39,298 nt of DNA from assembly GCA_020833415.1 (NCBI GenBank), contig JAJHQJ010000009.1:1-39298 (forward strand), in the 5' to 3' direction. Within the stretch, counting starts at the first letter, position 1. Every line of letters begins with the position of its first letter. This document shows, piece after piece, positions 6,291 to 17,802 of the stretch. Below the pieces are notes generated by a model. The model had not been told where the DNA came from. It saw only the letters and a list, made by a program, of their open reading frames with translations, and searched no databases. This stretch comes from Desulfurococcaceae archaeon (lineage in GTDB: Archaea > Thermoproteota > Thermoprotei_A > Sulfolobales > NBVN01). Both the position numbers and the translations under genes were made by a program.

Positions 6291-7484
6291 CTATCCGTAC
6301 CTCACCACCGTAGCGGGGTCTACGTACCTACTCCTAAGTACCTCTAAAGCCTCCTCATAGCTAGCTAGCACCTCCTCCGCGGATGCTAGGGCTACCTTAG
6401 CCATAGTGTCAGCATCATCCCTAGTGGCGTAGGGTATGCCGGCTTGGGCCATGTAGTCCTCCCCTACAGCCATGGACACCACCACCCCCGTCCCCGGTAC
6501 CAGACCTGCTGAGCCAACCACCTCAGCCAGCTCCTCACTCATGAAGAACACCCCTCCGAGGTCCTCGCAGACGACTCTAGCTAGCTCCGCGGTAGCTACC
6601 ACCTTATCCCGGGACTTAGTTGATCTCCCCAATGCTTCAGCCAGCCCAGCTATTCTAGTAGCTAGCTCCACCCTAACCTTCTCGAGGGATCTGGAGAACC
6701 TCGGGAAGGCTGTGTCTACCTCTAAGTAGCCTATGCCGAGTCTTGTGAGGGCCCTTGAGACAGCTCTAGCAACTGCTGTGTTATCGTAGTCCTTACTGTA
6801 CCTTAGGAGGATCGTCGAGCCCCTCACCCTACTAGCTAGGGACGGTATGAATGCCTTGCTCTCGAGGACTACTGTAGGTACCGCTACAGCCCCGAGCGAC
6901 TCCATAACGCTTCGCTTAGGCCCTAGCGGTACGTTGCCCTCTAGGTCCTCAACAGGCCCCACACCGCTACCTGAGCCGTTGACTGTTATAAGTACCGAGA
7001 GTGCCCCGCCGGGGAGGTCCGTGCTGAGCCCCCCAATAACGTCGGCCTCTCCCTCCAGCCGGCTGACTACGAAGCCCTTAACCCTCCTAGACACAGTATC
7101 TAGAGCCGCTACAGATAGCGCGTACTCCACTGCTGCGGGTACCTCATCGCACCCACCCCCACGTACCCTACCGAACAGCTTGAGGACTGCGAGGTGAGGT
7201 AGTGAGGAGTCCAAGCCTTCGAGGCCCCTCAAAATCTCGGACTCGAACTTGTTGAGTCCTCTACTAGGGGTCGCGCAGCCTATCCCCCCATCAGCTGTCT
7301 CGACGCAGAGGCGCCTCGGGTGGCTTACCCAGACCTTCCTAACAGATGTGTCGAAGTCGTAGAATCTGCGTACTAGTGCTAGTGCTGATGAGAACCCTAG
7401 GGAGTCGTCCTGTACGAAGCCGCTGTGACTGTGTGTATGTCCTACACCTACGTGGCCAGCTACCAGAACACTACGCGAGGCTAT
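6291..7484 (-). CDS. Conserved-looking hypothetical protein; coding frame extends about 84 codons upstream of the listed TTG start
   Basis: Open frame upstream of 7232 reads (ATA)ASRSVLVAGHVGVGHTHSHSGFVQDDSLGFSSALALVRRFYDFDTSVRKVWVSHPRRLCVETADGGIGCATPSRGLNKFESEI and joins LRGLEGL... . No ATG/GTG/TTG in the extension. TATA-like TTTTTACTTAAG about 27 nt upstream of the ATA. Confidence 0.6.
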   Translation of the reverse strand: MASRSVLVAGHVGVGHTHSHSGFVQDDSLGFSSALALVRRFYDFDTSVRKVWVSHPRRLCVETADGGIGCATPSRGLNKFESEILRGLEGLDSSLPHLAVLKLFGRVRGGGCDEVPAAVEYALSVAALDTVSRRVKGFVVSRLEGEADVIGGLSTDLPGGALSVLITVNGSGSGVGPVEDLEGNVPLGPKRSVMESLGAVAVPTVVLESKAFIPSLASRVRGSTILLRYSKDYDNTAVARAVSRALTRLGIGYLEVDTAFPRFSRSLEKVRVELATRIAGLAEALGRSTKSRDKVVATAELARVVCEDLGGVFFMSEELAEVVGSAGLVPGTGVVVSMAVGEDYMAQAGIPYATRDDADTMAKVALASAEEVLASYEEALEVLRSRYVDPATVVRYG

Positions 7485-7534
7485 TCCCCAGCTCTGTTTA
7501 GGGCTTAAGTAAAAAGGTTTGGGGGTTGAGGCCC

Positions 7535-8821
7535 CTACCTAGACTTGAACTTCTGCTCATCGAAGTCCTTGAGGACTAGCTTGCTTATTACTAGGCAGCC
7601 CAGCGGGTCGCCCGTCACGTTCAGCATGGTGTTCGGCATGTCTATTAGTGTGTAGACACCGGCTATCCAGCCAACCGGCTCCATAGGTAGCCCCAGGGTC
7701 GACATAGTCATCGCAGCTATCACTATCCCACCACCAGGTACGCCAGCACATGCGGCTGAGCCTAGGAGACCCATGATCAGGGCCATGAACGTCCCCACAC
7801 CCCCGAGTGGCACATTGTACATCTGGGATACCCACACAGCGTATATGGGCATCTCAGCAGCTACTGCCTGCATGTTGATTGTTGCCGCTATAGGCAGTAC
7901 TATGCTGGCTACGTCTGCCGGTACTCCCAGCTCCCTAGTTACCCTCATAGTGACCGGTAGGGTCGCGCTGCTACTGCAGGTAGTGAAGGCTGTTAACATA
8001 GCTGGATATATCTTCCTCCAGAACCGGATCGGGCTGAGCCTCAGGATCGCTGCCAGCACTATCGGGTGGTAGATGAAGAGTACTATGGCGTAGCTGATCC
8101 ACTGTGTGACTATCATGGCCCCAACAGCTGTTAGCCCCATAGCCCCGACGGTAGCTGTTAGGTTAGCCATTAAGGCGAACACACCTATCGGCGCGTACCA
8201 GAGTATTAAGTCAATTATCTTGTAGATTACCGCTAGGATCGCTGCCAGCAGCTTCGAGAGGAACTCCTTGGTATCTGGTGAGAAGGTGCCTATCATAGCT
8301 ATCGCGAAGCCTGTTAGGAGGGCCATCACGATTATCTGGAGGGCGTTAAGCTCTAGGAACGGCTGGACGGGGTTCCTAGGTATGAGCCCTAGTAGGACGT
8401 CTACAGCTGAGGCAGGCTCCGGAGCTGTCCAGCCCTCAGGTGGCTTTAGCTGTAGGCCCACACCTGGGCGGAGTACCGTGGCCATCGTGTAGCCTGTAGC
8501 TGCTGATAGTATACCCATAATCGCCCAGTAGGTGAAGAACCCACTGAATATCTTACCGAGCCTAGTGTAGGTCCTGACAGTAGTCACAGCCCACGCTATC
8601 GATACGAATATTAGGGGACCTACAACGAACTTCAGTAGGTAGATGAATATATCGCCAAGGAACTTGATGCCGGTAACTGGCTGGCCAATACCTAACCCAG
8701 CGACAATACCGATCAGGGTAGCTAAGAGCATTAGCAGTGGTCTCCTCCCAGGCCTTAGAGCTAACTCGAAGGCCTCAGCTCCCCCAGAACCTCCGCTAGA
8801 GGAGCTCACGTAACTCACCAC
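7535..8821 (-). CDS. Dicarboxylate/amino acid:cation symporter (DAACS family)
   Basis: LLKFVVGPLIFVSIAWAV; TCSSSATLPVTMRVTRELGVPADVASIVLPIAATINM; GVPGGGIVIAAM; DMPNTMLNVTGDPLGCLVISKL. Confidence 0.85.
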   Translation of the reverse strand: MVSYVSSSSGGSGGAEAFELALRPGRRPLLMLLATLIGIVAGLGIGQPVTGIKFLGDIFIYLLKFVVGPLIFVSIAWAVTTVRTYTRLGKIFSGFFTYWAIMGILSAATGYTMATVLRPGVGLQLKPPEGWTAPEPASAVDVLLGLIPRNPVQPFLELNALQIIVMALLTGFAIAMIGTFSPDTKEFLSKLLAAILAVIYKIIDLILWYAPIGVFALMANLTATVGAMGLTAVGAMIVTQWISYAIVLFIYHPIVLAAILRLSPIRFWRKIYPAMLTAFTTCSSSATLPVTMRVTRELGVPADVASIVLPIAATINMQAVAAEMPIYAVWVSQMYNVPLGGVGTFMALIMGLLGSAACAGVPGGGIVIAAMTMSTLGLPMEPVGWIAGVYTLIDMPNTMLNVTGDPLGCLVISKLVLKDFDEQKFKSR

Positions 8822-14145: not shown

Positions 14146-15801
14146 CTACAGCTTAATAACCCTCCTTAGTACCGCCTCACCCCTGTAGTCGGGTAGTAGT
14201 ATAGGTGCTCTCCTGGACTCAGGTACTCCTAGAAGCTTCAGCTCCTCGGTAAAGCTCTCGAGGTGTTTAAGCGATACCCTGGGTTTAGGTAATCTCTTCA
14301 CCAGTCTAGATACTTCGATACCAGCCCTCCTACCGAATACGAAGATATCCGCAGTAGAATTTCCTACAAGTCTGTTCTTCCCGTGAATACCTCCGGTAAC
14401 CTCACCGGCTGCTAGGAGGCCGCCGAGGGGCTCGCCTGAGGGTCTTAGTACGTGGGTCCACTCATCGATTAGTACCCCACCGTTCTGGTAGTGTAGGGTT
14501 GGGTACGTAAGTATAGGCTCTACAGTTATGTCTATACCGTGCCTTAGGAACATCCTGTAGAGTGCTGGGAGTTCCCTCCTAATCGTACCAGAACCCTTCA
14601 ACATATCTATTACCGGGGTATCCAGCCACACACCACAGGTACCCGTTGGGGTTATAATGCCCCTACCCTCGGTACACTCCCTTATAATGGCCGAGGCCAC
14701 TACGTCTCTGGGTTCGAGCTCGTATACGAACCTCTGCCCCTTAGTGTTTACGAGCTGACCACCAATACTCCTAGTCTTCTCAGGTATGAGCTCGCCGAGT
14801 ATTGCCTCAGGCCAGGCAACTCCCGTTGGGTGGTACTGGAGCGTGTCTAGGTCTACTAAGCCTGCACCGACCCTGTAGGCTAGTACTAGGCCATCACCTG
14901 TAGCACCGTAGTGGTTAGTTGTGGGGAAGCCGGCTATGTGTAGCCTACCGATACCACCCGTAGCTAGTACGGTAACCTTACTACGTACAACTCTGTACTC
15001 CCCGGTATCGAGGTTTAGGAGTACTGCACCACTTACGGCACCGGTCTCGGGGTCGGTAAGTAGTTCTATAGCTGAGTGGAACTCCAGTACCGGGATCCCG
15101 AGGGCTCTTACCTCATCCTTCAGTACCCTCATAACCTCGAGACCTGTGTAGTCACCGCAGCAGTGTAGTCTAGGTCTCGACGCGCCACCACCTGAGAGTC
15201 TCTCCAGGTCTTCACCAACACGGCTCCACCTAACGCCGAGCCCCTCAAGCCACTTTATCACTAGGGGAGCCTCCTCGGCGAGGACCCTCACGAGCCTGGG
15301 GTTATTCGTGAAGTGAGCCCCTGCGAGGGTGTCTAGGTAGTGTATTACGGGGCTATCGTCAGGTCCTGTAGCTGCCTGGGTACCGCTCTGGTACTTTACG
15401 GTATTGCTATCCCCGAGTCTGAGCTTCGTTGCTATTAGAATACCTGTAGGGTCTACACCCTCCTCAACAGCCCACCAGGCAGCAGCTAGTCCAGCACCGC
15501 CCGAGCCCACGATCAGTACATCTACATCGTAGTCTACGTGGTCTAGGTCTACCTCACCGGGTCTAACAAGGGGCCAGGACTCCAGTAGGTCAGCTATCGT
15601 AGAGTACATCACCATTCCCTTACACGGCCCGACCCCGAGGGCCCTCTTTAGCTCAGGCTTGTAGTCCGGGTGCCAGGCCCTTACTATACTCTCCCTCTCG
15701 TCGAGGGTCAGGCGCCGAGGTGGGGGTGCTCTAAGCCTCTCCCTACGGGTCTCCTCAACTACCTCAATAGCCTTCCTAAGCTCCGGTGGGTACCCGCTCA
15801 C
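14146..15801 (-). CDS. Fumarate reductase / succinate dehydrogenase flavoprotein, TfrA-like
   Basis: VDVLIVGSGGAGLAAAWWAVEEG; KYQSGTQAATGPDDSP; HYGATGDGLVLAYRVGAGLVDLDTLQYHPTG; TLHYQNGGVLID; GGIHGKNRLVGNSTADIFVFGRRAG. Confidence 0.9.
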   Translation of the reverse strand: MSGYPPELRKAIEVVEETRRERLRAPPPRRLTLDERESIVRAWHPDYKPELKRALGVGPCKGMVMYSTIADLLESWPLVRPGEVDLDHVDYDVDVLIVGSGGAGLAAAWWAVEEGVDPTGILIATKLRLGDSNTVKYQSGTQAATGPDDSPVIHYLDTLAGAHFTNNPRLVRVLAEEAPLVIKWLEGLGVRWSRVGEDLERLSGGGASRPRLHCCGDYTGLEVMRVLKDEVRALGIPVLEFHSAIELLTDPETGAVSGAVLLNLDTGEYRVVRSKVTVLATGGIGRLHIAGFPTTNHYGATGDGLVLAYRVGAGLVDLDTLQYHPTGVAWPEAILGELIPEKTRSIGGQLVNTKGQRFVYELEPRDVVASAIIRECTEGRGIITPTGTCGVWLDTPVIDMLKGSGTIRRELPALYRMFLRHGIDITVEPILTYPTLHYQNGGVLIDEWTHVLRPSGEPLGGLLAAGEVTGGIHGKNRLVGNSTADIFVFGRRAGIEVSRLVKRLPKPRVSLKHLESFTEELKLLGVPESRRAPILLPDYRGEAVLRRVIKL

Positions 15802-16542
15802 CTACCCCACCTCTAGGGACTGAGGTAAACGACCTGTCTTCAGGAACTCCTCGTAGACTCTCCTAACCTCGCTAGTGGGCGTTGAGAGTAGCTTCTCAAA
15901 GACCTTGCCGTACTTACCACTCTCGATCTCCCTAACCCTCTCCTCCAAGGACTTCGACCTCGGTGTGTAGTAGAGACCTACGACCCTCCCTACAAGCCTG
16001 AACACCGGTGGGTGCCTTATCTCAGCTGGACACCTCAGACTACAGAGTCCGCAGGAGATGCAGTCGAAGGTTAGCTCCGCAGCCTTCTTAAGGTCCCCCC
16101 GTAGGATTGCCTGGATGGCGTCCATGGGGCTAAGCCCCTGTGGACAGGCCTTAGAGCACGCATTGCAGCTTACACACCTCGAGATCTCGGGGTACAGCTT
16201 GAGTACGTAACCTGGGTCTGGTCTAAGCTCACCCCTCTTAGGTACGTACTCCACGAGGGGGACGTAGGGTACTAAACTAATGTACATACCGTCCACTACG
16301 GCCGTCTGGCATGCTAGACCTACCCTAATCTTGTAGTCCCCGGGGAGTCTGTAGACTACCGGACACGCGCCGCAGAAGCCACCCCTACAGCCAGCACCAC
16401 GTGTAAACCTAAACCCAGCATACTCCAGGGCCTTCATTATCGTTAGGCCCTTGGGGACCCTGTAGGCCTCCCCGTTAAAGTATATGGTGAGGTATTCCCT
16501 TACTTGGTGAGCTCCCTCAATACCCGAGGTCAAGTCCCCCAC
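15802..16542 (-). CDS. Fumarate reductase iron-sulfur subunit, TfrB N-terminal-like
   Basis: [2Fe-2S] ligands GCRGGFCGACPVVY...LACQ; two 4Fe-4S-type motifs CVSCNACSKACP and CISCGLCSLRCP. Confidence 0.88.
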   Translation of the reverse strand: MGDLTSGIEGAHQVREYLTIYFNGEAYRVPKGLTIMKALEYAGFRFTRGAGCRGGFCGACPVVYRLPGDYKIRVGLACQTAVVDGMYISLVPYVPLVEYVPKRGELRPDPGYVLKLYPEISRCVSCNACSKACPQGLSPMDAIQAILRGDLKKAAELTFDCISCGLCSLRCPAEIRHPPVFRLVGRVVGLYYTPRSKSLEERVREIESGKYGKVFEKLLSTPTSEVRRVYEEFLKTGRLPQSLEVG

Positions 16543-16566
16543 CTAGAGTACCTCCTGGTAAACAAT

Positions 16567-17413
16567 TTAAGTCTCACCCCTCAGGGAGGCGACGACCTTC
16601 AGAGTTTCCGGACTTACCGCCTCACGTAGATTAGCTGCGTAGGCTACGAGCTCGGATAGGTGGACTACCTTTAGGTTTGTGTACCTTCTTAGGTTGTAGA
16701 GGCATAGTGGGCAAGGCGTTACAACTATGTCCGCACCGCTACTAGCAATACTCCGGGCTATCCTCTCAGTATTCCCTCTAACGATAGCGGGCTCTGCGAG
16801 TACGTGGAAGGAGCCGCAGCAGTACGTCCTATACGGGTACCTCACGGGTACCGCACCTAGGGCCTCCACAATTCTCTCGATTACCTGCGGATTGTCGGGG
16901 TTATCTACAGCTACGGCCCTCGGTCTTAGTAGCATACAGCCGTAGTAGGCCGCTACCCTAACCCCCCTCAACCTACCCTCCGCTAGCTTAGCTACATCGC
17001 TAAGCCTAGCTGAGATTACCTCGACTAGGTGAAGTACCCTAAGCCCCCCGCGGTACGGTTCGAGCTCGTCTCTCAGGTAGTCGGCTACCCTTACGTACTC
17101 ACCCGGTCTACTCACAGGTAGTTGCTCAGCCTGCCTCAGGGTATTGTAGCAGAAGGGGCAGGAGGTGACTACGGAGTCCGCTCCTAGTTCACGCGACTGT
17201 CTGTAGGCTACTGAAAGAGTTCTGAGGGAGGATACGTACTTTACGTGCTCCAGGGCTGTAGCACCGGGGAAGCCTCCGCAGCAGTACCAACTCGAGATCT
17301 CGACGACCCTATAGCCGAGAGCTGCGAGTAGTGCTAGGGAGGACCTCTCAACCTCGCTGAAGTCCCTCTTCACGGAGCAGCCGGGGTAGTAGAGTAGGGT
17401 CTGCGTAGGCCAT
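16567..17413 (-). CDS. hdrB: HdrB-like heterodisulfide reductase subunit (two CCG domains); apparent +1 frame disruption just after the coupled ATG
   Basis: The listed ORF starts at GTG 17373, but the same frame upstream encodes LLYYPGCS, giving CX31CC with ISSWYCCGG. ATG at 17413 overlaps the hdrC stop (TGATG) but lies in another frame. Second motif: YYGCMLLRP...TYCCGSF...CPLC. Confidence 0.85.
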
Positions 17414-17802
17414 CACCCCGTCGACTTACGGGAGTAGGTAACGAGTAGTATTGAGGGGGTAGTCTCATCGATAGGTAGCTGACTATATGCCCTAGGCTCA
17501 ACACCGTTCTTAAGGGCTAACTGCCTTAGGGTCTCGACTACGAGGCCTGGAGCCACATCACGTGGACACTTATCTACACAGGTCATACAGGACACGCATA
17601 TCCATATGGACCTCAGCTTAGGTAGCTCAACACCACCTAGCTGTACGGCTCTAACTAGAGCTGCTGGGTGTAGGTCCATGAAGCTGGCAACAGGGCATAC
17701 AGCTGTACATAGACCGCACTGCATACAGGCGGTTACCTCCCTCCCGGTGTACTCCCTGATGAGTTCCCTAAGCTCTCTCGGGGTAAGCCTCAACCCTGCC
17801 AC
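17413..17802 (-). CDS. hdrC: HdrC-like iron-sulfur subunit
   Basis: CMQCGLCTAVCPVASFMDLHP and CVSCMTCVDKCPRDV; about 129 aa. Confidence 0.88.
   Translation of the reverse strand: MAGLRLTPRELRELIREYTGREVTACMQCGLCTAVCPVASFMDLHPAALVRAVQLGGVELPKLRSIWICVSCMTCVDKCPRDVAPGLVVETLRQLALKNGVEPRAYSQLPIDETTPSILLVTYSRKSTG

Follow-up and report, generated by a model that had tools for sequence, protein, structure and literature searches.

A putative ACG start codon for hdrB at the hdrC-hdrB junction of a Desulfurococcaceae archaeon

AUG, GUG, and UUG are the start codons given for archaea in a review of their translation initiation (PMC7531240), and close spacing between the stop codon of one gene and the start codon of the next is a requirement for translational coupling in archaea (PMC10666635, PMC6728339). 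Near-cognate initiation at CUG and ACG has been described in eukaryotes, an example being yeast ALA1, which is initiated at ACG (PMC2909995). In the open-access literature, from which many journals are missing, we found nothing that directly describes archaeal genes starting with ACG or CTG; because of those missing journals, this negative result is weak evidence of novelty. Here, we describe an archaeal hdrB gene that is probably translated from ACG. We refer to the whole stretch of DNA that was analyzed, 39,298 nucleotides, as the window.

The hdrC-hdrB junction in the window

Reading of the window sequence places both hdrC and hdrB on the minus strand, with the following features at and around their junction.

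17413 to 17802, minus strand: hdrC, encoding a 4Fe-4S dicluster subunit of 129 amino acids that ends ...S-R-K-S-T-G-TGA (Pfam Fer4_8 / Fer4_9; orthologues end R/K..TG-TGA).
17412 to 17419, minus strand: Shine-Dalgarno (SD) sequence of hdrB, GGGGTGAT, with the hdrC stop TGA inside it (anti-SD match; GGGTGAY in 12 of 12 junctions).
17411 to 17413, minus strand: the ATG within TGATG, not in the hdrB frame, which would open a 21-residue peptide, MAYADPTLLPRLLREEGLQRG (phase varies among relatives).
17404 to 17406, minus strand: ACG, the putative hdrB start, 5 nt past GGTGAT and 5 codons ahead of YYPGC (GTG or ATG in this column in the closest relatives).
17377 to 17379, minus strand: codon of the first CCG cysteine (YYPGC), lying beyond the called open reading frame (ORF) (CX31CCX39CXXC).
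17371 to 17373, minus strand: GTG chosen by ORF finding, rejected as the start (inside the conserved domain; SD absent upstream; the start in no relative).
16567 to 17406, minus strand: hdrB from the proposed ACG, 279 codons plus stop, with two complete CCG motifs (motif count, Pfam; 69% identity to the relatives L071 and L072 along almost the whole protein).

After the hdrC TGA (17415 to 17413), the hdrB frame reads W-P-T-Q-T-L-L-Y-Y-P-G-C-S-V-K-R. The original prediction had stated that this frame holds no ATG, GTG, or TTG between the hdrC UGA and GTG 17373, and our reading confirmed that none is present; ORF finding begins hdrB at GTG 17373 because there is no earlier in-frame ATG, GTG, or TTG. 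Its further observations also held: an ATG overlaps the hdrC stop (TGATG, 17413 to 17411) out of frame with hdrB, PGC and CC are separated by 31 residues (CX31CC), and the first cluster cysteine, at codon 17379 to 17377, is outside the ORF called from GTG 17373. Pfam CCG matches HdrB twice, the first repeat being CX31CCX39CXXC and the second CX38CCX34CXXC, and both sets of cysteines are complete only when translation begins upstream of that cysteine codon. Between the hdrC stop and YYPGC, the sole codon in the hdrB frame with a single mismatch to ATG is the ACG at 17406 to 17404, which the original prediction did not mention, and hdrB has no ordinary in-frame start able to replace it. The 16S rRNA 3' end of the window's own genome (L069) is GGCTGGATCACCTCCC, and GGTGAT of the hdrB SD is complementary to the tail GGATCACCTCC, pairing with AUCACC. 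The ACG stands in the start column of its orthologues and at a normal distance from an SD that matches the organism's own 16S tail.

We propose that hdrB is intact and translated from this non-canonical ACG (17406 to 17404, minus strand), a reading to which we assign a probability of roughly 0.74. With the hdrC stop codon inside the strong SD GGGGTGAT, a ribosome ending hdrC, or a small subunit newly recruited by the SD, would be held 5 nt upstream of the ACG. Initiator tRNA would then be used at the ACG to give M-Q-T-L-L-Y-Y-P-G-C, the N terminus becoming (M)QTLLYYPGCSVK. The position of the ACG, the SD, the spacing between them, and the conservation of the start column are directly established by the sequences; actual use of the ACG, its reading as Met, and a coupling of initiation to the end of hdrC translation are our inferences. 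The codon probably arose by a T-to-C change in an ATG start, made tolerable by a strong SD at short distance. Counting against this reading are the weakness of ACG as a start codon where it has been measured, its absence from the start codons given in the review cited above, and the out-of-frame ATG at the hdrC stop, which could draw away ribosomes that reinitiate there. The assembly, moreover, is 82% complete and in 85 contigs.

One copy of hdrB is present in the genome, and it adjoins the genes for HdrC and HdrA. Positions 14146 to 22540 of the window (minus strand) encode an HdrA-like protein, MvhD/FlpD, the small and large hydrogenase subunits, HdrC, and HdrB, followed by FrdB- and FrdA-like proteins, a gene order that suggests an Hdr-hydrogenase complex linked to fumarate/succinate. 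The HdrB proteins most similar to that of the window belong to other families of the order and lie outside its genus; no close HdrB was found in six same-genus genomes, and the operon is therefore patchy. The measured weakness of ACG starts, together with the dispensability of the operon implied by the six same-genus genomes that lack a close HdrB, would be in keeping with a true loss-of-start mutation, in which this strain produces little or no HdrB and is losing the complex. We consider such decay improbable, since the remaining hdrB frame is uninterrupted and contains both CCG motifs, the neighboring hdr, hydrogenase, and frd-like genes are intact, and the SD and its spacing have been kept.

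The same junction in related genomes

Junctions were compared base by base in the window and 11 same-order relatives (12 junctions), whose HdrB proteins are about 35 to 69% identical to that of the window; two of them, L071 and L072, are the close relatives L034 and L033 from the genome collection (68 to 69% identity). The sequence GGGTGAY, within which TGA is the hdrC stop, is present at the end of hdrC in all 12 junctions. In each of the 11 relatives, an ATG or GTG start follows the SD by 4 to 7 nt and precedes Y(Y/F)PGC by 4 to 7 residues. The window has the same SD, a spacer of 5 nt, which is the commonest value among the junctions, and 5 residues to YYPGC, with ACG in the start column. 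That column holds GTG in L071, ATG in L072, and ATG in L073, the closest relatives, and the codons that follow can be set side by side: ACG-CAG-ACC-CTA in the window, GTG-CAG-ACC-CTA in L071, and ATG-CAA-GTA-TTG in L072. The original prediction had called for alignment to homologues; that alignment reveals an SD/stop/start layout kept in all 11 relatives, with the ACG of the window in the start column. Its description of hdrB as "frame-broken" is unsupported, as the relatives have ATG or GTG where the window has ACG, and among the four options that it offered, a non-canonical start is the one favored by the junction comparison.

Two of the other options relied on the ATG within TGATG, combined either with a 1-nt indel or with +1 frameshifting. 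This ATG is present in 3 of the 12 junctions and absent from 9, and its phase relative to hdrB is different in each of the three: the window copy is out of frame, the L071 copy is in frame, and the L072 copy is out of frame by the other phase and is followed by a good in-frame ATG. The codon overlaps the SD itself and is best read, from the junction sequences, as a by-product of the SD/stop sequence. If it were the true start, the assembly would carry one extra nucleotide, or lack two, between 17411 and 17404. The in-frame position of this ATG in L071 and the joining of the two frames upon removal of one base from the window are consistent with such an assembly indel, but we judge it very improbable: the L072 copy is out of frame by another phase beside its good in-frame ATG, the spacer varies freely between 4 and 7 nt, the ATG overlaps the SD, and nine junctions have no such codon. 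Furthermore, frame breaks are rare in the assembly (three places in 657 kb), which makes an indel at exactly this position unlikely.

In keeping with a programmed frameshift from the same ATG into the hdrB frame, this codon overlaps the hdrC stop and opens 21 codons. However, neither an upstream start nor a shift site is conserved, with the ATG lying in three phases in three genomes and missing from nine, and the RNA structure predicted around the junction is no better than that of shuffled sequences (z = 0.88). No Rfam element was found in the window. The last option, readthrough of the UGA to yield an HdrC-HdrB (HdrD-like) fusion, draws on the 6 of 12 junctions (window, L073, L076, L079, L080, and L081) at which hdrB is in frame with the hdrC stop. 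The arrangement is not conserved: the frames differ in the other six junctions, all five in-frame relatives carry a proper ATG or GTG start for hdrB, and the UGA is already accounted for as part of the SD. Moreover, where an HdrD-type fusion has one continuous conserved frame, a UGA lies between hdrC and hdrB. Because the TGATG ATG occurs in three phases and the UGA is in frame in only 6 of 12 junctions, both frameshifting and fusion are argued against, and we hold either to be scarcely credible. Selenocysteine insertion at the UGA was considered and rejected; no tRNA-Sec scored over the cutoff, and the best match was a tRNA-Ser.

Apparent irregular starts elsewhere in the genome

A further explanation is that position 17405 reflects a consensus error or a minority strain allele and that the organism has ATG, an ordinary start. 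The ACG has been seen in one genome of the species, the only one available, and a single T-to-C change separates it from the ATG that, with GTG, fills the start column of the relatives. We nevertheless regard an error or allele of this kind as unlikely. The assembly contains few frame breaks relative to the sister genome (3 places in 657 kb), and errors can hardly explain all of the further near-cognate starts, described below, that this assembly shows in universal genes. ACG starts would occur at a few per thousand genes, a frequency at which a real ACG is likelier beforehand than an error in that one codon.

A census of starts covered 657 kb of the 1.25 Mb of the window's own genome (G000), 766 kb of a same-genus genome (G003), and two further comparison genomes, with the same gene-finding script applied to all four. 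Coding sequence immediately upstream of the first NTG, with a threshold of at least 5 nats, was found at 5.3 per 100 genes in G000, compared with 2.4 in G003 and 2.1 and 1.4 in the others. Among 298 non-overlapping orthologue pairs, N-terminal homology extended ahead of the first NTG in 30 cases in G000 versus 8 in G003, both lists including some shadow ORFs. Apparent CTG starts in G000 include those of the following six genes.

L138, 2331 to 2936, minus strand: rpL18, apparent CTG start (orthologue column; NCBIfam).
L111, 840 to 1307, minus strand: rpS15, apparent CTG start (orthologue column).
L139, 14960 to 16879, minus strand: ArgS, apparent CTG start (ATG in G003).
L082, 6027 to 7739, minus strand: GlyS, apparent CTG start (ATG in G003; NCBIfam).
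L091, 8087 to 9007, plus strand: NAD-dependent epimerase, apparent CTG start.
L130, 6105 to 6701, plus strand: PdxT, apparent CTG start (NCBIfam).

The rpL18 gene begins CTG-GCT-AGG in G000, compared with ATG, GTG, or TTG in six same-genus and about sixteen further genomes; rpS15 begins CTG-AAC-AAG, compared with ATG, GTG, or TTG in the readable relatives, including the six same-genus genomes (a few rows without a match to the search motif were left unread). The CTG codons of ArgS and GlyS correspond to ATG in G003, that of ArgS standing one codon off the printed column, and the CTG of a zinc-ribbon protein corresponds to TTG. NCBIfam matches for L18, PdxT, and GlyS start at the CTG or a few residues from it. 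In a simple tally, CTG at SD distance was 1.5-fold over background, and because this enrichment is so small, the case for CTG rests on the orthologues.

ACG was enriched at SD distance in G000 (8 seen versus 1.8 expected, 4.5-fold), in a small tally in which several instances have an in-frame GTG three codons upstream. A second clean ACG was found in a conserved gene on L124 (minus strand), which reads ACG-CCC-CTC-ACT where G003 has GTG-CCC-TTC-ACT and two other same-genus genomes have GTG. Enolase probably also starts with ACG, judging from its alignment with the G003 GTG at the same distance from CTAGGTG, but a GTG three codons upstream is possible instead. Since errors can hardly account for near-cognate starts in universal genes, such codons do seem to be tolerated by the organism, and their use elsewhere in the genome makes the ACG of hdrB plausible as a real start.

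Four further loci bear on start codons. The start column of a metallo-beta-lactamase-fold gene of the PRK04286 family (L090, 5982 to 6836, plus strand) is ACG in the genome of the window, whereas six same-genus genomes (L272 to L277), most of them with no NTG nearby, read ATC or ATT; for that reason we set it aside as ambiguous. The reverse case occurs in G003 (contig C12, about position 245085, plus strand), where ACG-AAG-TAT-CGG corresponds to ATG-AGG-TTC-CGC in the window's genome. A conserved ORF in the window (6294 to 7538, minus strand), 77% identical in G003, lacks any NTG over the first 102 codons; its G003 counterpart likewise has none near the conserved onset, where both read ATA-GCY-TCG-CGT. 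A conserved gene on L117 (2236 to 3789, plus strand), 61% identical in G003, runs for about 120 codons without NTG, and the start of its G003 copy is not obvious either.

It is possible, though we put the odds slightly below even, that the species has relaxed start selection, with CUG and ACG used regularly in a small share of genes that includes rpS15, rpL18, ArgS, GlyS, and hdrB, while sister species keep NTG. The cause could be altered initiation fidelity. Loss of aIF1 was rejected as the cause, as aIF1 (SUI1) is present in G000; a tRNA scan of the G000 sample under the bacterial setting listed no Met tRNA. The sampled G+C content is 0.527 in G000 and 0.477 in G003, and CTG and ACG are each one T-to-C change from TTG and ATG. 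Both classes would be accounted for if start codons drifted under G+C bias, at little cost to genes with a strong SD. C-to-U editing of mRNA restores some plant chloroplast start codons, and as ACG and CTG are both one C-to-U change from a normal start, editing could restore AUG at hdrB and UUG at the CTG genes. We place almost no weight on it: T-to-C mutational drift in the genome of higher G+C content gives the same pattern, and to our knowledge no such mRNA editing occurs in archaea.

Gene finders commonly allow ATG, GTG, and TTG, and genes that start with ACG or CTG are therefore cut short or called broken; in the case of hdrB, the ORF call strips a cluster-binding cysteine from the protein. 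If housekeeping genes of an archaeal genome do start with CUG and ACG, it would become possible to test directly how stringently archaea select their start codons, usually given as AUG, GUG, and UUG, and this lineage would be useful for such a test in that close relatives keep normal starts.

Comparison with known systems

On sequence grounds, the predicted protein resembles HdrB of soluble HdrABC in its two CCG motifs and in its position adjoining hdrC, HdrA-like, MvhD/FlpD, and hydrogenase genes; it differs in its putative ACG start codon and in the adjoining FrdB- and FrdA-like genes. As in archaeal termination-reinitiation (PMC6728339, PMC10666635), the stop and proposed start codons are within 10 nt of each other, the genes run in the same direction and encode subunits of one complex, and the SD is located in the end of the upstream gene, hdrC, with a spacing that would fit coupling. 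Unlike in the described cases, hdrB would start not at the overlapping ATG but at the ACG 7 nt past the stop. As in eukaryotic near-cognate initiation (PMC2909995), the start column of the junction is filled by a codon with one mismatch instead of by ATG or GTG, but the putative ACG start of hdrB belongs to an SD-led archaeal mRNA and is accompanied in its genome by apparent near-cognate starts in several genes, ribosomal protein genes among them.
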